Assembly (NCBI GenBank): GCA_947471985.1
Contig: CANIZL010000055.1
Location: 1-42,639, forward strand
Length of the DNA: 42,639 nt
Source of the DNA: Verrucomicrobiota bacterium
GTDB lineage: Bacteria; Verrucomicrobiota; Verrucomicrobiia; Limisphaerales; UBA9464
Direction: 5' to 3'
Part shown: in pieces, positions 5,797-42,639 of the stretch
Layout of the letters: each line of letters begins with the position of its first letter
Position numbering within the stretch: the stretch's first letter is position 1
Notes under the pieces: generated by a model
Told to the model about the DNA's origin: nothing
What the model saw: the letters and a program-made list of their open reading frames with translations, nothing else
Databases searched by the model: none
Made by a program: the position numbers and the translations under genes

Positions 5797-7857
5797 GTGT
5801 CTTCCAGCTTCAAGCTGACCTCCAGCTACACGCCCGCGGGCGATCAGCCCACGGCCATTGCGAAGCTGACGCAGGGCGTGCTGTCCGGTCTCAAGCACCA
5901 GGTGCTGCTTGGGGTGACGGGTTCCGGCAAGACCTTCACCATCGCGAACGTCATCGCCAACACCGGGCGACCGACGCTCGTGCTGTCGCATAACAAAACG
6001 CTCGCGGCCCAGCTGTACTCCGAATTCAAGGCGTTCTTTCCGGAGAACGCCGTCGAATACTTCGTCAGCTACTTCGATTTCTATCAGCCCGAGGCGTACA
6101 TCCCCCGCACCGATACCTTCATCGAGAAGGATTCTTCGATTAACGAGGAAATCGAGCGGCTGCGTCTGTCCACGATGAATTCCCTGCTCTCCCGCCGGGA
6201 TGTCATCGTGGTGGCCAGCGTGTCCTGCATCTACGGCATTGGCGATCGCAACGACTATGAAAGCATGGTCATCCCGCTGCGCCTGGGGCAGTCCATATCG
6301 CGTCAACAACTGCTAGAGCGCCTCATCGCCCTGCAATATGTCCGCAATGATTTCGATCTGACGCGCGGCAAGTTCCGGGTCCGCGGCGACACCATCGAAC
6401 TGCATCCGGCCTATGCGGAAGACGGCTTGCGCATCGAGTTTTTCGGCGAGGAGATCGAACGCTTCACCCGGTTTGATCCGTTGACCGGCGAATCCTTCGA
6501 GGTGCTCAGCGCGGTGAATATTTTTCCGAGCAAGCAATTCGCGACGCCGCAGGAAAAGATCAACGCAGCGCAACTCACCATCCGGGCGGAACTGACGGAT
6601 CGCATCGCGGAATTCGAGAAGCAGGGCAAGCTGCTGGAAGCCCAGCGCATCAAGATGCGGACGGAGTTCGACCTGGAACAACTCCAGGAATTGGGCTTCT
6701 GCTCGGGCATCGAGAATTACTCCCGCCACATCAGCGCCCGCCCGCCGGGTTCCCGTCCGGGCACATTATTGGATTTCTTTCCCGAGGATTACCTGCTCGT
6801 GGTCGATGAATCCCACGCCACGCTGCCGCAGGTCGGCGGCATGTACGCGGGCGACATGGCCCGCAAGGGAGTTCTGGTGGAACATGGTTTTCGACTCCCT
6901 AGTGCGCTGGATAATCGGCCACTGAACTTCGAAGAGTTCCAAACCCTGCATCGCCAGGGCCTCTACATCAGCGCCACTCCCGGGCCGACCGAACTGGCCT
7001 GGGCGGGACCCAAGAACATCGCCGAGCAGATCGTCCGGCCAACGGGGCTTATCGATCCCGAGATCGAACTCAAACCACTGAAGGGCCAGGTCGACGACCT
7101 GATCGAAGAGGCCCGCAAGCGCGTGGAACTCAAGGAGCGGGTCCTCGTCACCACTCTGACCAAACGCACGGCGGAGGAGCTGACCGATTACCTGCGCGAC
7201 ATCGGCATCAACGTGCGGTACCTGCACAGCGAGATCGACGCCATCGAGCGCGTGGAAATCCTCCGGGCCCTGCGTCGCGGTGACTGCGACGTCCTCATCG
7301 GCATCAACCTGCTGCGCGAAGGCCTCGATCTCCCGGAGGTTTCGCTGGTGGCCATATTGGATGCCGACAAGGAGGGCTACCTCCGCAGCGCCACCAGTTT
7401 GATTCAATCGGCCGGCCGGGCCGCGCGGCACTTGAACGGCAAGGTGATCCTGTACTGCGACGTGAAGACGCAGAGCATTCAGAAGTTTCTCGCCGTCTCG
7501 GAGTACCGTCGACAGAAGCAGATTGCCTACAATCTGGCCCACAACATCACCCCGCGCAGTGTGAGCCGCGGACTCGACGAAGGCCTGAGCAGTGTTGGCT
7601 CCGGCCGGCAGGTCGCGGCGAATCTCCTGCACGAATCAGTCGGTCAATTTGACATCACGGAAACGATCCGGGAATTGGAGCAGGAGATGCTGACCGCCTC
7701 GAACAACCTGGAATTCGAGAAAGCCGCGGTGTTGCGGGATCAGGTGAAGGAATTGAAATCCCGCCTCAACGGAGCGGAGCTAAAGTCTCCGGGTTCGACC
7801 GCCAAGGCGCGAGAAGCCAGCCGGGGCGGCCGCAAAGGAGGCGGACGAAAACGGTGA
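5797..7857 (+). CDS. uvrB: Excinuclease ABC subunit B
   Basis: A 686-residue UvrB, the damage-verifying helicase-like subunit of UvrABC nucleotide excision repair. The Walker A motif GVTGSGKT lies at 39-46. The tyrosine-rich beta-hairpin that probes DNA (YFDFYQPEAYIPRTDTF) is at 92-108, and the DESH box is at 337-340. Helicase motifs in the second RecA domain include TTLTKRTAEELTDYL and QSAGRAARHLNGKV. The C-terminal UVR domain that contacts UvrC is visible around 625-662 (NNLEFEKAAVLRDQVKEL). It ends in a Lys/Arg/Gly-rich tail. The start is GTG at 5797, just before the family N-terminus, with no Shine-Dalgarno. uvrA and uvrC are not in this window. Confidence 0.98.
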   Translation: MSSSFKLTSSYTPAGDQPTAIAKLTQGVLSGLKHQVLLGVTGSGKTFTIANVIANTGRPTLVLSHNKTLAAQLYSEFKAFFPENAVEYFVSYFDFYQPEAYIPRTDTFIEKDSSINEEIERLRLSTMNSLLSRRDVIVVASVSCIYGIGDRNDYESMVIPLRLGQSISRQQLLERLIALQYVRNDFDLTRGKFRVRGDTIELHPAYAEDGLRIEFFGEEIERFTRFDPLTGESFEVLSAVNIFPSKQFATPQEKINAAQLTIRAELTDRIAEFEKQGKLLEAQRIKMRTEFDLEQLQELGFCSGIENYSRHISARPPGSRPGTLLDFFPEDYLLVVDESHATLPQVGGMYAGDMARKGVLVEHGFRLPSALDNRPLNFEEFQTLHRQGLYISATPGPTELAWAGPKNIAEQIVRPTGLIDPEIELKPLKGQVDDLIEEARKRVELKERVLVTTLTKRTAEELTDYLRDIGINVRYLHSEIDAIERVEILRALRRGDCDVLIGINLLREGLDLPEVSLVAILDADKEGYLRSATSLIQSAGRAARHLNGKVILYCDVKTQSIQKFLAVSEYRRQKQIAYNLAHNITPRSVSRGLDEGLSSVGSGRQVAANLLHESVGQFDITETIRELEQEMLTASNNLEFEKAAVLRDQVKELKSRLNGAELKSPGSTAKAREASRGGRKGGGRKR

Positions 7858-7939: not shown

Positions 7940-8281
7940 TCAAAGAGGCGGCGCGACGGCGCCCGCACCCTCTTCGCACGACGCCGGATAAATGAGGATT
8001 CCGACCCGGTGGATATGGTCCAGCATCGGCCGATGTTGGATGGACTCCAATGGCTGGACATCAAAGCGGTACGGCAGTGGAAGTTCGTCCAATTCGGCCG
8101 CGATCGCTTCCGTGCTCAGGGGGTCAGTGTCGCCCGTCACCACCAGATCCACGTCGGAGCGCGCACTGTGAGTACCCTTGGCCCGGGAACCAAAGAGCGT
8201 CGCAGTCTTCACTTCGGGATGACGCCGAAAGACTGAACACACCAGATCCAACTCCGCCGGATCGAGGGGTGCCGCCTTCAT
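7940..8281 (-). CDS. mntA: MNT-type nucleotidyltransferase, MntA-like antitoxin
   Basis: A 113-residue minimal nucleotidyltransferase. The catalytic signature GSX10DXD is intact: Gly31-Ser32, then Asp43 and Asp45 (GSRAKGTHSARSDVDLVV). In the studied HepT/MntA systems this protein adds AMP to a tyrosine of the HEPN toxin and so neutralises it. Its ATG lies within an ATGA overlap (8278-8281) with the stop of the HEPN gene upstream, so the two are translationally coupled. The frame stays open up to 8554, but that extension is antisense-frame noise inside the HEPN gene. It is convergent with uvrB. The last ~15 residues are Gly/Ala-rich and not part of the fold. Confidence 0.87.
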   Translation of the reverse strand: MKAAPLDPAELDLVCSVFRRHPEVKTATLFGSRAKGTHSARSDVDLVVTGDTDPLSTEAIAAELDELPLPYRFDVQPLESIQHRPMLDHIHRVGILIYPASCEEGAGAVAPPL

Positions 8282-8697
8282 TTTAGGGCCTCCCGTTGCA
8301 TGAATTCGTGAAGTTGAGCGAAAGCAGCAAGGTAGCGGACGTGAATCGCTTCGACGGCCAGCTCGAAACTGGCCCGATTGTAGGTATGGGAAAGGAGGTT
8401 TCGATGGTCGAGCATGTCGATCCACGTTTGACCATCGGCCAGAATCTTGGCCGCAAACGCGTCCTTTAGTACCTGCCGTGGGGTCACTGTCGCCAACACG
8501 AAACCGCCTTCTTCCAAATAGTCCTTCACCGTCTTCCAAGCGAGCTCGAAGCAATACTCGAAGCGCTGGATCACACCTTCCTTCTCCAATGGATTCAGGA
8601 CGGAGGGACCGTTCTCCAGCGCTTCCCGCAACAGAACAAATGCGCGGTCGAAATTTTGGAAACGCTGTTTCCAGCGGACGTCAACGTTAGGAGTCAT
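8278..8697 (-). CDS. hepT: HI0074-family HEPN protein, HepT-like toxin
   Basis: A 139-residue all-helical protein of the HI0074 (nucleotidyltransferase substrate-binding) family. It shows the family core RFEYCFELAWKTVKDYL (45-61) and the HEPN RNase motif RX4HXY as RNLLSHTY at 99-106 (Arg99, His104, Tyr106). In HEPN/MNT systems this motif forms the RNA-cleaving site of the HEPN dimer, and its tyrosine is the target of the partner nucleotidyltransferase. The motif is complete, so the toxin could be active. It is the first gene of a two-gene operon with the MNT gene (4-base overlap). The pair sits at the left end of an accessory block between uvrB and ssrA. ATG start at 8695-8697. Confidence 0.88.
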   Translation of the reverse strand: MTPNVDVRWKQRFQNFDRAFVLLREALENGPSVLNPLEKEGVIQRFEYCFELAWKTVKDYLEEGGFVLATVTPRQVLKDAFAAKILADGQTWIDMLDHRNLLSHTYNRASFELAVEAIHVRYLAAFAQLHEFMQREALK

Positions 8698-9651
8698 GGG
8701 GCGGAAAATTTTACTCGCTGGCTTCGGCTGCCGGCACCTTCAAGCCGGGTAGCCTGATTGAACAGGACCCCGCGTTGCGCGGCTCGAAGGATCATTCAGC
8801 TCGCAATTGGCACCGGCCGATTGCGACGCAACCACAGGGCCGAAAGCAGCAAGGGCACGGTTGCGTGGGACACGTTTAGTGCCTTTCGGCTGTGCGATCT
8901 TGTCCATTTTGATCTGTTCGAAAAAATTGTCGATCAAGCCCGGAATCGGCTGGAATACCTACCCCAAGCCCACCCAGTCAGTCCCTTGGTGAAAACCACC
9001 TCGGACACAGAACAGTGCCGCGCCTGACGGACAGCGTCAACGAGCTGCTCAACCGTCTCCAGTTGGGGCGATGAGTCGAGGCTGTCAACGGAGCCCCTTG
9101 GCCAAGACGCGGCTTTCAAAACGCAGATCGGAGACGCCTTGGGATTTCAGATCAGCATCACCTTCCTTGTCGTGAGCGCACCCCTCGGAAGTTGGATGGA
9201 CTCCACCATCGCATTCCACCGCGAGATTCGCCATTGCACCAAAGCGGTGTGACCGCGGCCAACTTATGAAGAGTCGTGAACACTCCACCGCCAGTGGAGC
9301 GTTTCAGCAGTTCGCACATTTTTGCTCCCAACTGCTAGCACGGGTGTGCGACCGGGGGTGTCCGCGGTGCGTTGGACCTGGCCGAAGAGCCGGTCGTCGC
9401 ATTGATGGCGGTCGGTCAGCCCCATTAGCGACGGATTCCGCACCGCCAGAAGCTGCACCACACGTGCGGAGAAGAAGCGCGTGGAGTCAAATTTGCCGCT
9501 GCCCCTGCGTGTGGCGGATCGCACCCAGCGGCGGTTGCCCGGCTCGCCAGATGAGAACGAAAACCGCACGGCACCTTGTCCCAAACTTGTGAGCGCTGCG
9601 GCGAGCCAAGTTTCGATTGACAACGCTTTTTTTGTATTTTAGAAAAGCAAA
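8698..9651. other. 954-base stretch with no supportable gene
   Basis: Only short open frames are present, at 8758-9027 and 9266-9592 on plus and at 8740-8937, 8934-9119, 9085-9288 and 9264-9623 on minus. None shows a recognisable domain, and none continues convincingly into its neighbour. The composition is mixed. The small minus-strand frames at 8740-9288 follow one another and could be remains of a decayed gene, but I cannot name it. A 6-base inverted repeat (CTCCAC at 9283-9288, GTGGAG at 9294-9299) is the only local structure noted. The right end holds the candidate promoter of the next operon. Confidence 0.5.
9617..9645 (+). promoter_or_regulatory. Candidate sigma-70-type promoter of the 9652-11577 operon
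   Basis: A perfect TTGACA at 9617-9622, a 17-base spacer and TAGAAA at 9640-9645 (4 of 6 matches to TATAAT), inside a T-rich stretch. The expected transcription start falls at about 9652, which is the A of the ATG, so the message may be leaderless or almost so. This is inferred from sequence only. Confidence 0.4.
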
Positions 9652-10371
9652 ATGCCAGGAGATTTAATTGAACTCATCAAAACAGCCAAGGAGGTCTTCG
9701 AATTGGTTTCGTGCGTGTTACCAACATTACCTAATGCGGTTGCAAAGCTTGACGTTGATAGATACAGCTTAGCCCTAACGCGGGTCGAACACACTTCGTG
9801 GGCAAAGAATTCTTGGGTGTATCAATACCAACCAAACTCTCTTATTGGGCCAACGCCTTCATTTTTCACCCAAGTCGTTTCTACAGGAACTGTTGGGAGC
9901 GCTACGCCGACGTATACAAGCAGCAGCAAGGATTCGTTCGACCCGCACGGGATCGGTCGCCAAAACAGAATTTGCGATTACTCAACAGTTGCCGCAACTG
10001 GCGAGATCGATCCGCTGAAATTCTCACTCTCGGAGTCGTTCACTTGCCGCCTGACCGCCACAATGGCTGAGTCGAGCATTTACTTGGATTATTTGGGTGG
10101 GTACGCTAACTTTATGGTATCCTTTAAGGAAGGATTGCCTGCTTCAACTTGCACTGGGCCCGGAACCAATCCGTCGGTACATTATCAAGATGACATCGGG
10201 CCAATATCCATTCAACCGGCCGTCGTTCCACCACTGGGAAATCTGCCTCAGGGAGCTTCAGTTGTCATTTTTCCGAGTAGGACGAATTGGGAACATATAT
10301 GGTGGGACTCCAGTAAACCGTTTCACGGATATGCGGCAATTCGACTTCTTAGCTACGGCACCCCGAAATGA
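9652..10371 (+). CDS. Hypothetical protein, first gene of AT-rich operon
   Basis: A 239-residue protein that I do not recognise. It has no signal peptide or membrane segment. The first 30 residues are amphipathic helix-like (MPGDLIELIKTAKEVFELVS). The remainder is rich in Ser, Thr, Pro and aromatic residues and looks mostly beta. Codon use (many AAT, TTA and GAT-type codons) and GC content are clearly lower than in the flanking genes, which suggests transfer from another genome. It starts at ATG 9652 with no Shine-Dalgarno, right after a promoter-like sequence. Its stop overlaps the start of the next gene (ATGA at 10368-10371). The frame is long enough and the overlap tight enough for it to be a real gene; function is unknown. 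Confidence 0.72.
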   Translation: MPGDLIELIKTAKEVFELVSCVLPTLPNAVAKLDVDRYSLALTRVEHTSWAKNSWVYQYQPNSLIGPTPSFFTQVVSTGTVGSATPTYTSSSKDSFDPHGIGRQNRICDYSTVAATGEIDPLKFSLSESFTCRLTATMAESSIYLDYLGGYANFMVSFKEGLPASTCTGPGTNPSVHYQDDIGPISIQPAVVPPLGNLPQGASVVIFPSRTNWEHIWWDSSKPFHGYAAIRLLSYGTPK

Positions 10372-10844
10372 ATTTGTCTAATAACAGGTTAAACTTAACT
10401 ATTATCGGTATTGGTACCGTTATATTTGTATCTTTGCATTTTAGCTCTGGCGCAGTTCGAAGGAAAATTTCCGGACCGGAAGATACTGAACTTTCGGCGA
10501 TTACTGCCCCGGTTAACCTCATCCCTGGATCGAACACTAGTCCAGTCAAATCAACAACGCACGGCCAGAGCCGAATTTCTCACGGGCCAGCTTCCGATGA
10601 TCTCCCGGCAGAGGTCGCCTACCAGTTCGCTCTCATCGAAGAGGCTGTACTCGCGGCCGGGACAAATGTTTCCCACACACTGCCTGAAATGCGGGCGCCA
10701 CGTTTCTGGTTGATCGGTAATTTGATGTTGGATGAAGTCTATCAGTCCCAATTTCGCCACGGAGGCAGGGAAAAAATCAGCAGTAATCTGGCTCTGACAC
10801 AACTGAGCCAATACCTCAAATCGGACCGTGCAGAAACCCAATAG
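10368..10844 (+). CDS. Hypothetical membrane-anchored protein, second gene of AT-rich operon
   Basis: A 158-residue protein with one N-terminal hydrophobic segment (LNLTIIGIGTVIFVSLHF, residues about 8-25), most likely a membrane anchor or uncleaved signal. A Ser/Pro/Thr-rich linker follows, then a mostly helical C-terminal domain from about residue 75 (AEVAYQFALIEEAVLAAG and on). I do not recognise a family. The start is coupled to the previous gene by an ATGA overlap, and its end overlaps the next gene by 17 bases, which supports a three-gene translationally coupled operon. The general plan (short cytoplasmic N-terminus, one membrane helix, linker, helical domain) is shared with the next product. 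Confidence 0.68.
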   Translation: MNLSNNRLNLTIIGIGTVIFVSLHFSSGAVRRKISGPEDTELSAITAPVNLIPGSNTSPVKSTTHGQSRISHGPASDDLPAEVAYQFALIEEAVLAAGTNVSHTLPEMRAPRFWLIGNLMLDEVYQSQFRHGGREKISSNLALTQLSQYLKSDRAETQ

Positions 10845-11577
10845 CGTAACGGCACTTCTATTTTTAGGAGTGGTCCTGATTATTGCTCTCAAGCTGCGGA
10901 GCGGGAGAGTGCCGGCGGGGGGCACCGGAGTTTCGCCCCAGCGCTCCGCCGTGCGGGGGCCGGCAGTGGTTGCGGACCGCCCTGCGTTGAAACCGGGTGC
11001 CCAGCGGGATGGGACGCGTTTCAACCCAAAGATTCGGGAATACAACGAGACCTTCGAGGCGGCGGTCCAGCAGAGCCAAGATCCCCAGCTAAAACGGCTT
11101 TTCTCGGCGGTGACGGAACGAATGCCCGACGCTTGGCAGGACACATTTGTACTTCGCGACACCTACCATGCGGTTATTGGGATCGGAGCCCTCAAGCGGG
11201 CGGATGAATCCTTTATTGAGGCCAACGAAAACCATATCCAAGGCATATCGGAATTGAGTCAGAATCCAAAGACTGAAGAGGTGCTCAAAGATGCCAATCG
11301 CGAGCGAAGGACGCTATCCGCGGAATCGTTGCAAACCCTTCGCTCGGTTCTCGCGCACCGACTATCCTTAAAATATCCCGAGATCGATCGCACCCAATGG
11401 GATGAGATTTTGCGCATCGACTACGCCGCGCCGCCCGCCCCGCTTGGCCCGCTTAATTTGATCTCTCCGGAAGTGATTGCCGGACATTTTGGATTTGAAC
11501 TCCCACCCCCGGCAAAACTGCCCCCGTGGCATATGGCCCCGAACGAGGCAAAGCGCCTGCTTGAAGTTGAACGATAG
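10828..11577 (+). CDS. Hypothetical membrane-anchored protein, third gene of AT-rich operon
   Basis: A 249-residue protein with an N-terminal membrane segment (ALLFLGVVLIIALKL, residues about 9-23), a Pro/Gly/Arg-rich linker to about residue 65, then a helical region with many charged residues (about 70-205) and a Pro-rich tail. No family recognised. The start is GTG at 10828, inside the end of the previous gene (17-base overlap). Base composition returns towards that of the host in the second half. It ends 269 bases before the 3' end of ssrA, which is on the opposite strand. An envelope role is inferred from the anchor only. Confidence 0.68.
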   Translation: MQKPNSVTALLFLGVVLIIALKLRSGRVPAGGTGVSPQRSAVRGPAVVADRPALKPGAQRDGTRFNPKIREYNETFEAAVQQSQDPQLKRLFSAVTERMPDAWQDTFVLRDTYHAVIGIGALKRADESFIEANENHIQGISELSQNPKTEEVLKDANRERRTLSAESLQTLRSVLAHRLSLKYPEIDRTQWDEILRIDYAAPPAPLGPLNLISPEVIAGHFGFELPPPAKLPPWHMAPNEAKRLLEVER

Positions 11578-11810
11578 GCGAATTTTGCCCATTGTACGCG
11601 GGAAGGTCGCCTCGCGCTGAAGCATTCGGGTATCTGCGGTGATCTGATAACTTGGTGTGCCCGGCTGAATCCGTGGCTGAGCGTCGGCTGACTATGCAAC
11701 CCGCAACCAACCCTCCGCACCCAGAATCGATGCGTCGCCGACGCCATATGTTCTTCGGCGTAGTAAAATGAAGGACCCCGTTTCAATTGATAACGGGCTG
11801 AGACTGGATT

Positions 11811-11845
11811 CCTCCGCTCGTACCCTCTACGGGTCCGAGCGGAGG
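11811..11845 (-). terminator. Hairpin just beyond the tmRNA 3' end
   Basis: A 10-base-pair inverted repeat (CCTCCGCTCG at 11811-11820, CGAGCGGAGG at 11836-11845) with a further ACCC/GGGT inner stem. It begins two bases after the encoded CCA end of ssrA. No T-run follows on the minus strand, so it may act in 3' processing or protection rather than as a classical terminator. A second, weaker hairpin (CCCGTT 11777-11782, AACGGG 11792-11797) with a T-rich stretch beyond it lies further downstream. Confidence 0.5.
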
Positions 11846-11846
11846 A

Positions 11847-12200
11847 TGGTGGAGGCGGCGGGAATCGAACCCGCGTCCTAGATCGGCTTCCCAAAAGCGA
11901 CTACATGCTTAGCCAGACTAAAGTCTCGCCCAGGTGCTAACGGTCTGACATCGAAACACCCGCGCCAGCCCGCATGAAAATGTCGGCCCGGTACGCGCAG
12001 ACTCCGCACCAGACCCCGCCTGCTTAAGGCGTTCTGACCCTGCTAGCAGGTGTTACAGGCAGAACGTCACGGCACTTTAGGCCGCGAGAGCCAACTCTTC
12101 GTTAGCAGTTGTGTTTTGACCCGGTGATTTACGAGGCCAACGGATCGTCCTCGGCATGCCGCCCCTGGTGAGTCGCTCCAGTCGAGACCGGTACGCCCCC
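11847..12200 (-). ncRNA. ssrA: Transfer-messenger RNA (tmRNA)
   Basis: A 354-base RNA gene for trans-translation, which frees stalled ribosomes and tags the unfinished peptide. The 3' end (plus strand 11847-11880) is a tRNA-like T arm and acceptor with GGTTCGATTCC and an encoded CCA. The 5' end GGGGGCG (12194-12200) pairs with CGCCTCC next to the CCA over seven base pairs, including one G-U, which fixes both ends. The 5' domain contains TCGACTGGAGCGAC, like the D-arm analogue of other tmRNAs. The tag frame ends in codons for ANEELALAA followed by TAA (12077-12079). It is a one-piece tmRNA. Its protein partner, smpB, is at 32369. On its 3' side lies the accessory block 7940-11577. Confidence 0.95.
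12077..12115 (-). other. tmRNA tag-peptide reading frame
   Basis: In-frame codons of the tmRNA read NTTANEELALAA and then TAA. The ANEELALAA ending is the usual hydrophobic degradation tag. The exact resume codon is uncertain: an upstream CTCGTAAA block like that of Escherichia coli is present, but the spacing allows the tag to start one codon earlier (CAA). Confidence 0.75.
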
Positions 12201-38259: not shown

Positions 38260-41200
38260 TTACTTGGCGTTGGCGGGATCCTGTTTCGCGGACCACAGGA
38301 TCGCATTCTTCATCAACCGCTGATAGGCCGGATGACTGTGGGCTACGCCGTCATGGCCCAAGGTGATGCCCGCGATCCGCGTTTTGGGATGTTCCACCAC
38401 GAAGACCTGCGGGAACGTTTTGTTCTTCGATGCCGAGTATGCCGTCGCCAGCACGCGGATCGGCGTCCCGGCCGGGTCGGGTTCGAAATAGTACAACTCG
38501 TCGGAGAGCTTGAACTTCGCCGGCACACCCTGCATCAGCGGGTGGGTGGGATCGGTGACGGTCACTTCGAACTCACCGTACCGATCATGGCCGCGGGATC
38601 CGCCGCCAACGAGTTCACGATTATAGGCCGGCCATTCCTTCTGCCAGTTGTACCACAGGGACGGATGGATCAGCACCAACCCCTTGCCAGCGTTCACGTG
38701 GGCGAAGACCGCCTCACGCGAGGCATCATCGGCAAACGCCTGATTGTTGCTCAGATAAAGGACATCGGCGACGCGAATCGCGGCGGCCAATCCCGGCAGG
38801 GGCTCGAGGTAATTCGCGGAGAACGGTCCCGCCGCGTTCAAGGTGGCGGTGTCCGCGATCCCGAAGAAGCGGTTGAAATCATGGGAGGATCCACCGCCCA
38901 CGATCAGCGTCTTGAGTCCGGGGCCCCACTGCAACACCGGCAAGGCGGGCGCAGCCGAGGCCGGCACCGGGGCACTGTCCGAAGAATCCGCCGTGATGGC
39001 GAAGAACAGCGGCGTCACGCCGTTGTCATAGCTTTCCAACGTGAGCGATTCCACGACCGCACGGTTGTTCAACTCCTTGGTGAACCAGCGCACCTGGCCG
39101 CGACCCACGGTCCAATTCAACGCCCGCGATCCGGGAACATCGAAGCGGCCGTTGTAGTCGGCGAATTCCACGCCGTTCTTGAGTACCAACTGCTGGCTGG
39201 CTCCGCCCACATAGCGGACGGTTACCTTGGCGGCATCGACTCCGGGATTCAGCGGCGCACCCCACCCCGCCACACCTCCGAGGAAATGCAGGCGGCGAGT
39301 CGCCACGCCGACTTTGACTTCCACCCGTTGCGGCAGAGTGGTCCGCGACCACGAGTCCGGAGCGCCGCCCTTGAGGGCGATCACGTTGGCAGCGGCCTTG
39401 TCCGGGCTGAGAACATCAAACGGCACATCTTCCACCCGGCGGAGGCCGTAACGATTGAAGGTCACCGTTTCGTCGACGTTTTCCGGACTGATAAACAATC
39501 CGCGGCTGTTGCTGGCCGTAAACGCACGGGTCAGATCAATCAGCCGGAAGCGGGTCTCATCGACGCACAGGTAGGCCAACAGATCGCGCAATCCCTCGGC
39601 GCCCAGCGATTCAAACCCTTCCGGCATCAGCGATTTTCCGGTCGAGGAACGACTGCTGATGTCGGCGAGCCGCACCACATGATCCGCCGAGGCATCGCGC
39701 AGGATCAGCTCGCTGGAGTTTTCCCGTTCGATCACGCCGTTGTACGAGGTGCCGTCCTTGGTTTCGATCGCGTACGCGAGGAAATTGGCTTCCACGACGC
39801 GATTGGGATCGACGATGTGGACCAGCAGATCCTCGGGGCCGTGGGCGCCCATGCCATTAAGATTCGGCGCGAGATTGCGGCCCTCGTTCTTGTACTGGTG
39901 GCAACCGGCACAGTTCACTGTGTAGAGCGCCTTGCCCTTGGTCGGATCCCCGGGTTTCACCACCTCGGGCCGGAGCTTCGTGATCAGTGCTTCCTTTTCC
40001 TTCGCTTCAGGACCAGCCAGGCCATCGATCACTTCATTGGCGCGACGCGAGACGGCTTGGTCTCCGTGCGTGCGCAGACGGTGAGTCCGGGCCGGGCCAA
40101 GAACGGTCAACGGCAGCGTCTTGTTACTCAGCAGATCCAGCAGTGCCTGGGCCGACTCCACCCGCTTGAGGATGTGACCGAAGGCCGCCTCGGTGAGGTT
40201 AACGGGCAATTGGCCGAAGACATTTACCAGGGCGCGTCCGCCTTCGGGAGTGTTGCCGAGGATGTCCACGACGCGTTTGCGCAGGGCCTCGCTGTTGCCG
40301 GGGGCACTCAGCAGGGCGGCGACCGAGGGAATGACCGAAGCGTCCGTGGCGCGGATGCCCACCAGGTTGGCGGCCACCTGACCGCGGACAGCGTCCGACA
40401 AGGAAGTGTCCGCGAGGGCGCCCGTCGCCTTGGTAATGGCCGGCTTCATCTCCGCCGCCAAACGGTTCGAAGCTTCGAAGCGGGCCACCAGCGGCAGGGC
40501 CGTGCCGGCGGTCCGTTCACCGGCCAACAGGGCGCGCAGGGCGCTGATTAGGGCGTCGTCCAACGGGGGCCGAACACCGGAACCGAGATTCGCCTGTAGC
40601 GAACTCAACACCGAGGCCTTCAATCCATCCGTGCCCGCCGGTTGGCTGGCAACAAAGGTCAACAAAGCGGTGATTTGGGCAGCATCGCCGCGATTGGCCA
40701 CCAGGCGGGCCAAATGGGGCACGTAATCGGCGAGGAAGGCCGGATCGGCCGACTGGAAGGCTGCCTTGAGATACAACACCGGCTCCTTCGAAGCAGCACC
40801 CACGGCCGCCGATTGCAACCAGCGGCTCTTGAAGGAGGGCCAGGCCGCGACCACGGCCCGGGTCAGTGCAGGTGTCGCCGGCAGTTCGCCGGCCGTCATC
40901 AAGGCCACGGTGCGCACCCGCTCGTCGCCATCCTTCAATCGTTCGATAACCGCTTCTTCCGCGACCGCATCCGGCTGCGCCCCGCCGTCCGATTGCAAAT
41001 GGCCCTTGATGTCGGTATTCGACGCAAATTCCGCCGCCACCCGCAGGGCATTCTTCCGCACCGCCACACTGGCATCGGCATACACGGCGCGGGCTACATC
41101 CCCGGACCAAGCCACGTCGTGAGTGCGGGCCAGAGTCTGATACAACCACAAGGCCTGAATGCGACCGTAAACGGACCCACTGGTATCGCCGATCAGTTGT

Positions 41201-42639
41201 CCGAGGGCTTCCTGCACCCCATTCAACCCCTCGGGATTCTCGGTCAGCAGGCGGTTGGCAGTGCCGCGCACCCAGCCGTTGGGATGGCTCAGCATCTCCA
41301 CCAGGCCGGCCGGGTTCTTCGCGTCCAACCGGTAGGCCGGCAGCGTCCGCGCCTCCTTGTGCTGCACCCGCCACAGACGCGTGAAATGATGATCCCGATC
41401 CGGCCGCGCCGCCGCGTTCCGCGCTCCGTGCGCCGGTCCCCGCGTGTCGTTGTGCACCGCAATCTGATTGTAGAAATCCACCACGTACATCGCCCCGTCG
41501 GGACCCACGCGCGCGTGGATCGGCCGGAACCAGTAATCATTTCCGCCCGTGAAGAACTCCGTCTCCTTCCGCCCCTCCTCGCGCCGGCCCTTCAGCGTCG
41601 CCCCGTTCCAATCCAGGAACTCGTGGTGGAACAAATGCATCGTGGCCTCGCTCATGAAGAACGAGTACCGCTCCTCCGGGCCCCACTTCGCCGGCCAGGC
41701 TCCGCCGTCATACACCGTCGCTCCCGCCGCCGCCGTCCACTGGTTCACCCAGTCGATCTGCACGTACGGCTGCCGCGTCTCCTTGAACGGCGGATAAATC
41801 ACATTGCTGTCGATCACGTTCTCCCACGCCGGATGCCCGCCAATGCTGCCCCGCGCCAGGTACTTCTCGGGCAGCACCACGTGCAGGATCGGATTCCCGC
41901 AGGTGGCCGTCGTGTAGATCACCTCGTTGTCCGGCGTAATGTCCAGGCCCCAGGTGTTGCATCCATTCGCCGACACCTGCTCCAAGGCCGAGCCATCCGG
42001 GCGGAAGCGGTACGCACCGTCGTTGATCTTGCCAAAGCTCCGGGTGCCGTCACCCGACTTCACATCGCCCTTCGTGTAACCCACCGTGCCGTAGATCCAC
42101 CCGTCCATGCCCCACTTCAGGTTGTTGATCACCGCGTGCGTATCGAACGTCCCCCAGCCCGTGTACAACACCTCCACCTTGTCCGCCTTGCCGTCGCCGT
42201 TCGTATCCCGGATCCACAGGATGTCCGGCGCCTGCGACACAATCACGCCGTCCTTGTAGAACACCAACGACGTCGGTAGTTCCAACCCATCGGCGAACAC
42301 CGTCTTCCGGTCCATGATCCCGTCACCATTGCTGTCGGTCAGGATCGAAATTCGATCCCGCGGTGCCCGGTCCATCTTGCCGCCCACCGGGTACTTCTTC
42401 GGATCCTGCAGCCGGTTCCAGTAGGCTTTGAAATCGTTCTTATTCACGTCGCGGCCGCCCGGATACTCCGGCGTTTCCACCACCCAGAGCCGGCCCTGCG
42501 GATCCCAGTCCAGCGACATGATCTTCTCCGCCACCGTCTCGTCCGCCACCAGGTTCACGTTGAACTCCGGGTGCAGCTTCATCTCCGCCTTCGCGTCCGC
42601 CGGCTTGCGCGGGCCGCCCGCGGGATACGTCAACGAGGC
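38260..42639 (-). CDS. Giant PVC-type dehydrogenase/HEAT/haem CxxCH/ThuA protein, partial
   Basis: An open frame of 1,459 codons that reaches the right edge, so the N-terminus with its probable signal peptide is missing. From the N-terminal side it has (1) a beta-propeller 'membrane-bound dehydrogenase' domain with LDWDPQGRLWVVETPEYPGG and calcium-type loops DSNGDGIMDR and DTNGDGKADK (about 41340-42600); (2) HEAT-like helical repeats (about 40040-41330); (3) a PVC-type haem domain with CAGCH at 39898-39912 (VNCAGCHQYKNEG); (4) a beta-sandwich stretch (about 38960-39480); and (5) a C-terminal ThuA-like domain with LIVGGGSSHDF, HPSLWYNW and GGGSRGHDRYGEF (about 38266-38920). Such proteins are a hallmark of Planctomycetota and Verrucomicrobiota, exported and linked to sugar or polysaccharide oxidation. 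The substrate is unknown. Confidence 0.93.
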   Translation of the reverse strand, partial: ASLTYPAGGPRKPADAKAEMKLHPEFNVNLVADETVAEKIMSLDWDPQGRLWVVETPEYPGGRDVNKNDFKAYWNRLQDPKKYPVGGKMDRAPRDRISILTDSNGDGIMDRKTVFADGLELPTSLVFYKDGVIVSQAPDILWIRDTNGDGKADKVEVLYTGWGTFDTHAVINNLKWGMDGWIYGTVGYTKGDVKSGDGTRSFGKINDGAYRFRPDGSALEQVSANGCNTWGLDITPDNEVIYTTATCGNPILHVVLPEKYLARGSIGGHPAWENVIDSNVIYPPFKETRQPYVQIDWVNQWTAAAGATVYDGGAWPAKWGPEERYSFFMSEATMHLFHHEFLDWNGATLKGRREEGRKETEFFTGGNDYWFRPIHARVGPDGAMYVVDFYNQIAVHNDTRGPAHGARNAAARPDRDHHFTRLWRVQHKEARTLPAYRLDAKNPAGLVEMLSHPNGWVRGTANRLLTENPEGLNGVQEALGQLIGDTSGSVYGRIQALWLYQTLARTHDVAWSGDVARAVYADASVAVRKNALRVAAEFASNTDIKGHLQSDGGAQPDAVAEEAVIERLKDGDERVRTVALMTAGELPATPALTRAVVAAWPSFKSRWLQSAAVGAASKEPVLYLKAAFQSADPAFLADYVPHLARLVANRGDAAQITALLTFVASQPAGTDGLKASVLSSLQANLGSGVRPPLDDALISALRALLAGERTAGTALPLVARFEASNRLAAEMKPAITKATGALADTSLSDAVRGQVAANLVGIRATDASVIPSVAALLSAPGNSEALRKRVVDILGNTPEGGRALVNVFGQLPVNLTEAAFGHILKRVESAQALLDLLSNKTLPLTVLGPARTHRLRTHGDQAVSRRANEVIDGLAGPEAKEKEALITKLRPEVVKPGDPTKGKALYTVNCAGCHQYKNEGRNLAPNLNGMGAHGPEDLLVHIVDPNRVVEANFLAYAIETKDGTSYNGVIERENSSELILRDASADHVVRLADISSRSSTGKSLMPEGFESLGAEGLRDLLAYLCVDETRFRLIDLTRAFTASNSRGLFISPENVDETVTFNRYGLRRVEDVPFDVLSPDKAAANVIALKGGAPDSWSRTTLPQRVEVKVGVATRRLHFLGGVAGWGAPLNPGVDAAKVTVRYVGGASQQLVLKNGVEFADYNGRFDVPGSRALNWTVGRGQVRWFTKELNNRAVVESLTLESYDNGVTPLFFAITADSSDSAPVPASAAPALPVLQWGPGLKTLIVGGGSSHDFNRFFGIADTATLNAAGPFSANYLEPLPGLAAAIRVADVLYLSNNQAFADDASREAVFAHVNAGKGLVLIHPSLWYNWQKEWPAYNRELVGGGSRGHDRYGEFEVTVTDPTHPLMQGVPAKFKLSDELYYFEPDPAGTPIRVLATAYSASKNKTFPQVFVVEHPKTRIAGITLGHDGVAHSHPAYQRLMKNAILWSAKQDPANAK

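Follow-up and report, generated by a model that had tools for sequence, protein, structure and literature searches.

Three short, tightly coupled genes on a contig from a Verrucomicrobiota bacterium may form an accessory, co-inherited operon for an envelope complex with a binding rather than a catalytic role, a reading to which we give a probability of about 0.42. The genes lie in a 42,639-nucleotide stretch of DNA, hereafter the window, and have counterparts in related genomes, where they are co-inherited, overlap or nearly abut, and evolve fast under purifying selection. In every locus seen the gene for the first protein (protein A) is followed by a gene for an anchored protein, and homologues of A look exported. 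We propose that A would be a probable β-rich binding domain held by two conserved cysteines, and that it would work with the single-pass membrane proteins encoded by ORF2 and ORF3, each with a domain on a flexible linker. The likely use of such a complex would be an optional trait with variable partners, for example surface recognition or adhesion, over a housekeeping one. The features of the window on which this proposal is built are as follows:

9652..10371, plus strand: ORF1 (protein A), 239 aa, without a recognisable signal peptide
10368..10844, plus strand: ORF2, 158 aa, with one N-terminal membrane helix, a linker and a short conserved stretch near the C terminus
10828..11577, plus strand: ORF3, 249 aa, GTG start, with one N-terminal membrane helix, a linker and a helical-looking domain
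10395..10445, plus strand: predicted membrane helix of ORF2 (residues 10-26), Kyte-Doolittle (KD) maximum 1.92
10846..10896, plus strand: predicted membrane helix of ORF3 (residues 7-23), KD maximum 2.69
9973..9975, plus strand: codon of invariant Cys108 of ORF1, from the alignment of 9 homologues
10150..10152, plus strand: codon of invariant Cys167 of ORF1, from the same alignment of 9 homologues

An earlier note, made from the sequence of the window, had described three frames coupled by a 4-base and a 17-base overlap, and these are exactly as claimed: ORF1 and ORF2 share the ATGA at 10368-10371, and ORF2 and ORF3 share 10828-10844. Its observation that the first two genes are low in GC also holds, with values of 0.490 for ORF1 and 0.486 for ORF2 (ORF3, 0.575) against 0.63 for the whole window. 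The GC content by codon position is flat in ORF1 (0.49/0.49/0.49) and ORF2 (0.52/0.45/0.49), and both lack the third-position (GC3) excess of neighbours such as uvrB (0.62/0.40/0.79, thus GC3 0.79), a gene named from its sequence at 5797-7857. This flatness left room for doubt whether ORF1 and ORF2 are genes, and it speaks for chance open reading frames or decayed DNA within an AT-rich patch.

Comparison with other genomes goes the other way. Homologous trios in the same order are present in three further genomes (G229, G227 and G202), which belong to one other genus (g4) of the same family; the finding of the trio together elsewhere had been set beforehand as a test, and these three genomes pass it. 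When 50 genomes of the family were searched with ORF3, the best further matches were in G229 (3e-7), G227 (9e-6) and G202 (5e-5), in each case the third of three closely spaced genes, and the products of the first genes align along window ORF1 with 29, 28 and 21% identity, respectively. For the relatives, the start was set by hand at the ATG fitting the window. The same gene order is seen at all four loci with a trio-type A (the window, L018, L019 and L020), as is an overlap between ORF2 and ORF3, which is 17 bases in the window and 4 in each of the three relatives. A profile made from the relatives only (3 trios) was also searched against the 617 six-frame segments of the window: ORF1 ranked first (3e-23), as did ORF3 (1.2e-13), and ORF2 ranked second (0.069) after an unrelated segment (0.014). 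None of 2000 shuffles was as good for the whole of ORF1 or for ORF3 minus its helix, and 1 of 2000 was as good for ORF2 minus its membrane helix, which scored 9.5 bits. By these comparisons ORF1 and ORF3 can firmly be called homologues of the relatives' genes; the homology of ORF2, the weakest of the three, is supported by position, size and architecture together with a weak, non-random match. Since ORF1 and ORF3 match full-length open frames in three genomes, the homology settles that these two are genes, refutes the chance reading for them, and supports ORF2 as a third, so that we give chance or decay next to no weight.

Selection on the trio was estimated from G227 and G229, the closest pair of trios, the synonymous sites of the window copy being at or near saturation. 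The dN/dS values were 0.50, 0.47 and 0.39 for ORF1, ORF2 and ORF3, and those of neighbouring genes in the same pair were 0.05 for rplU, 0.15 for obg and 0.28 for nuoN. The trio genes are thus under purifying selection, the absence of which would have counted against the earlier note, yet they evolve faster than rplU, obg and nuoN.

Protein A also occurs in a two-gene form. Genus g2 contributes five such loci from three genomes, where A is followed by one anchored protein of 216-230 aa, and the anchored proteins of these duos are a family of their own. Across all nine loci, trio and duo, the A gene and the anchored gene overlap by up to 17 bases or lie up to 35 bases apart, given the hand-placed starts of the relatives. 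In a profile-profile comparison trio A and duo A scored 48 with a probability of 90%, and the best of 200 column shuffles reached 20.9. One duo member had been chosen by its similarity to trio A, and a duo-A-only profile reaches a trio A at E 0.55. We therefore regard the link between trio A and duo A as good, if weaker than the links among trios. The partners show no detectable similarity between ORF2 or ORF3 and the duo partner (18/200 and 23/200 shuffles as good), and their common origin is unsupported by sequence comparison, so it is layout that suggests the same kind of complex for duo and trio. A likeness between ORF2 and ORF3 (1/200 shuffles as good) has a 9-column core at the membrane helix and is read as hydrophobic composition. 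Behind one duo (L112, G169:C5, 1089-2790, minus strand) the anchored protein recurs as a partial second copy (HMM 2.4e-24, frame 1092-1694), which overlaps the end of a 457-aa secreted-looking ORF and may be decayed, or the partner of a different secreted protein.

Turning to the anatomy of the proteins, a single hydrophobic segment is present near the N-terminus of ORF2, of ORF3 and of the duo partner (KD maximum 1.55-2.69 within the first 60 residues, n=13), and the values of 1.92 and 2.69 for window ORF2 and ORF3 agree with the single membrane helix that the earlier note had assigned to each. Flanking charges, on average, favour an N-in orientation for the duo partner and for ORF2, whose C terminus would then be outside; they fix no orientation for ORF3 and are neutral in window ORF3. 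Helical domains had been proposed for both anchored proteins; the structure model made covers ORF3, where such a domain is seen only at low confidence (single window protein, pLDDT 43). The corresponding model of ORF1 is weak (single window protein, pLDDT 30) and has an N-terminal helix followed by strands; neither model gives a usable fold.

The N-termini of the A proteins differ between the two forms. In the five duo As a positive N-terminus is followed by a hydrophobic stretch (net charge +3 or +4, amine included; KD 1.29-2.26), which ends at what we take, by eye, to be a signal-peptidase site (AQA/E, SRA/E, SKA/E, KLA/A and VRA/E). The four trio As have a net N-terminal charge of 0 or +1 and KD values of 1.05-1.55, begin near the point where mature duo A begins, and in all four an in-frame stop precedes the start by 2 to 10 codons (3, 10, 10 and 2). 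ORF1 of the window, with a hydropathy peak of 1.49 and no positive charge preceding it, looks neither anchored nor signal-bearing, although hydropathy by itself draws no sharp line here. To judge from these features, duo As look as if they bear signal peptides and trio As do not; the hydropathy ranges of the two overlap, so the missing signal of trio A is read mainly from charge and length. The earlier picture of a cytoplasmic-looking protein and two anchored partners holds for 4/4 trios.

Within A itself only C108, C167, P189 and P208 (window numbering) are present in all rows of a nine-row alignment, N212 is in addition aligned throughout an eight-row alignment, and no Asp, Glu, His, Lys, Arg or Ser is invariant in the nine rows. 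From the coupling of the genes, from the cysteine pair and from the finding that no acidic, basic, His or Ser residue is invariant, we infer that the proteins touch and that A binds; the β-rich fold and the location of trio A are proposed with the same reserve. The preference for binding over catalysis is no more than a leaning, as a cysteine can itself be catalytic.

The envelope complex suggested by the earlier note is plausible, and is strengthened by the apparently exported homologues in g2; a trio A without a signal peptide poses a real problem for it. If trio A is unexported and the domains of ORF2 and ORF3 are periplasmic, they would not meet without another export route. Either A exits by some other route, or the ORF2 and ORF3 domains face inward, or A is at the inner face of the membrane. 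The last of these would make A a cytoplasmic regulator or adaptor, with the exported homologues having diverged in role, and this we consider unlikely. It would explain why all four trio As lack a recognisable signal and have frames closed by a stop so shortly upstream, and it is compatible with the neutral charge flanks of window ORF3. However, both cysteines persist across the trio and duo forms (9/9), as would suit an oxidising compartment more than the cytoplasm, the charges of ORF2 favour N-in and C-out, and the linkers look, by eye, rich in Pro, Ser, Thr and Gly, as linkers are in many periplasmic proteins. An envelope complex in which A binds is the reading that we prefer.

In this sample the unit is confined to one family, where it is rare and patchy. 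An eight-row profile of A finds it in 7/320 genomes of the order, at nine loci, in one family and three genera; among the 50 family genomes listed, A is in 1/1 of genus g1 (the window), 3/8 of g2 and 3/9 of g4, with two copies each in G169 and G207. Single-sequence searches reached less far. ORF1 returned itself only from 195 genomes of the order, and ORF3, in a same-size draw of the order, gave three weak further rows (E 0.003-0.009; G121, G010 and G054), of which the G010 match holds two stops. In the 50 family genomes ORF3 gave nine further rows at E up to 0.1, namely the three trio genomes as the best and six weaker ones at E 0.02-0.09. ORF2 alone gave six further rows there (E 0.007-0.065), none at a trio locus, and these were treated as noise, given that a single-sequence search of the family with ORF2 misses its own trio counterparts. 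With a four-row ORF1 profile six of the 320 order genomes were matched (the four trios, G207 and the later-dropped G132), and the ORF3 profile, in a run of limited sensitivity that scored 8 candidates per genome, matched 4/320, identical to the set with trio-type A. The weak match in G207 (2.4e-5) is a full-length 255-aa gene followed by an anchored-protein gene, and with G207 added the profile gained G169 (two loci) and G064; in the class it matched 4/384 genomes, including its own and the dropped G132. That genome (E 3e-4 and 1.5e-4) was dropped for a stop inside the match and the lack of an ORF1-like frame, and is absent at E 0.001 with the eight-row profile; G217 (E 0.008) was dropped for an internal stop. 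Scans of a genome-contig collection with ORF3 and ORF1 gave no match, and there was no relative in viral contigs and no relative of ORF1, the sole query, in phage and plasmid records. The genome-contig and viral-contig scans prefilter on short exact peptide patterns and their negatives are weak; those of genome contigs failed to return the g4 trios that the genome search had found.

The trio is an unnamed set of proteins whose general layout is familiar. The kinds that come nearest to it in layout are pairs of a secreted effector and an anchored immunity protein, and membrane-anchored defence modules, and neither kind stood up to the tests made. The earlier claim that the trio matches no known family agrees with our searches, in which nothing fell below E 0.01: against Pfam, PHROGs and NCBIfam the best value was 0.013 for window ORF1-3 and 0.011 for the trio and duo relatives scanned. 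PADLOC, at E 0.1, returned 0 families for the three window proteins, for those of the G227 trio and for a single duo pair (G169:C4). PDB profile searches gave nothing convincing, the lowest E value, 0.065, being that of the duo partner, and among the papers listed none concerned these genes by its title or the opening of its abstract. In layout the g2 duos are like effector-immunity pairs, as they consist of an apparently exported protein with an anchored protein immediately after it, and are patchy and fast-evolving. Some bacterial pairs of that class have a periplasmic, membrane-anchored immunity protein. It is conceivable, if improbable, that the unit is an antagonism system in which A would act as a secreted antibacterial protein, with the anchored proteins conferring immunity on the producer in the periplasm. 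The presence in 7/320 genomes, all in the one family from which 50 genomes were sampled, the two copies in G169 and in G207, the fast evolution, the pairing of an apparently exported A with an adjacent anchored protein in 5/5 duos, the low GC in g1 and g2, and a REP-type transposase beside one duo would all be consistent with this. However, no toxin domain was matched in trio or duo, nor any toxin or immunity family below E 0.01; no delivery module was noticed next to the loci; among the usual kinds of catalytic residue only Cys is invariant in A, which leaves room for a Cys-based activity; and the first protein of the trio has no recognisable export signal and is followed by two anchored partners, not one.

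The genomic context adds little to the earlier emphasis on ssrA. The tmRNA gene ssrA, with the tag ANEELALAA, occupies 11847-12200 of the minus strand, and the AT-rich genes of the trio stop 269 bases short of its 3' end, adjoining it much as do the genomic islands integrated at ssrA, a class named in the abstracts of PMC11915505 and PMC3146451. In contrast to such islands, the window has no second ssrA end, since one 28-base stretch of that end, allowing ≤3 mismatches, has its sole copy in the 42,639 bases in ssrA itself, and the trio of G227 and G229 sits elsewhere, between nuoN and rplU-rpmA-obg. Moreover, 14 window genes were looked for around ssrA in 12 relatives, over loci of 3.9-15 kb, without a match; ARAGORN re-found the tmRNA in 10 of these 12. 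The position beside ssrA therefore carries little weight, and ssrA as an integration site of the trio is unsupported. The nuoN-rplU gap was likewise rejected as an ancestral site: nuoN is beside rplU in G227 and G229 and was not found there at 14 other rplU loci, one of which (L082) holds <0.2 kb upstream. In G228, which follows in closeness by rplU (89%), a 4.1-kb stretch contains no match to the trio, and the G202 trio is on a 3.6-kb contig. No neighbours conserved across the nine loci were seen, with the G227-G229 pair outside that listing and the G202 and G207 contigs being 3.6-6 kb long. G064 and the window share a PVC-type large protein and one further protein, which in the window are far from the trio; the former is a 1457-aa PVC-type heme-binding protein (TIGR02604, TIGR02603) at 38260-42633, minus strand, with its relative near the G064 duo, and its presence is in keeping with an origin in Verrucomicrobiota. 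At L041 (G207:C204, 4273-5340, minus strand) a gene like that of a REP-associated tyrosine transposase (E 7e-19, under the curated cut-off) lies ~0.55 kb from an AT-rich duo.

Composition varies with genus. The g4 trios have a GC of 0.61-0.70 and a GC3 of 0.74-0.86; in G227 and G229 (0.65-0.70) they are host-like and close to their surroundings, and in G202 somewhat under them (A 0.61 vs 0.69 on another contig of the same genome). In g1 and g2 the A gene is clearly under its locus (0.45-0.55 vs 0.57-0.63), and it is possible that the window copy was gained by transfer. A is the lowest-GC gene of the unit in 9/9 loci, GC-rich hosts included, and its low GC in G227 and G229 is not caused by the third codon position.

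Near the trio in the window, and adjoining uvrB, is a gene pair on the minus strand (7940-8697) that encodes a nucleotidyltransferase and a HepT-like protein (Pfam NTase_sub_bind and Polbeta), a likely toxin-antitoxin type pair of the MNT-HEPN type. It resembles the trio as an accessory gene pair, a neighbour on the opposite strand, but the proteins are unrelated, the trio matching neither Pfam family. This neighbour, the patchy presence and the AT-richness of the window copy would suit a role in phage defence or superinfection exclusion, with A sensing or binding and the anchored proteins acting on the membrane. We think such a role distinctly unlikely, given that PADLOC at E 0.1 matched neither the duo nor the two trios scanned, the window's among them, that the trio of G227 and G229 has host-like GC at its place between nuoN and rplU, and that the viral contigs, and for ORF1 the phage and plasmid records, yielded no relative. 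Between the gene pair and the trio, 8700-9640 (~0.9 kb) is lower in GC than most of the window, has no recognised gene (one ORF scanned) and is possibly decayed DNA. An 18-base word is repeated at 8032, 9188 and 10724, which may be chance, and a strong inverted repeat at the ssrA 3' end (11810-11846, 94% over 16 bases) is probably the ssrA terminator.

To return to the binding complex, its two forms could be related in a further way, which we regard as doubtful: one binding domain may have moved between compartments, being exported with one partner in g2, and signal-less, with both cysteines and two partners, in g1 and g4. Should both forms be functional, this would be a new envelope module that switches membrane side by swapping partners, and the anchored proteins possibly help A across the membrane or hold it there. 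An unannotated, lineage-restricted gene set now has a defined boundary, an apparently exported homologous form and a few residues known to be invariant. If the difference in compartment between duo and trio is real, it would provide a clean case of the rewiring of an envelope module.
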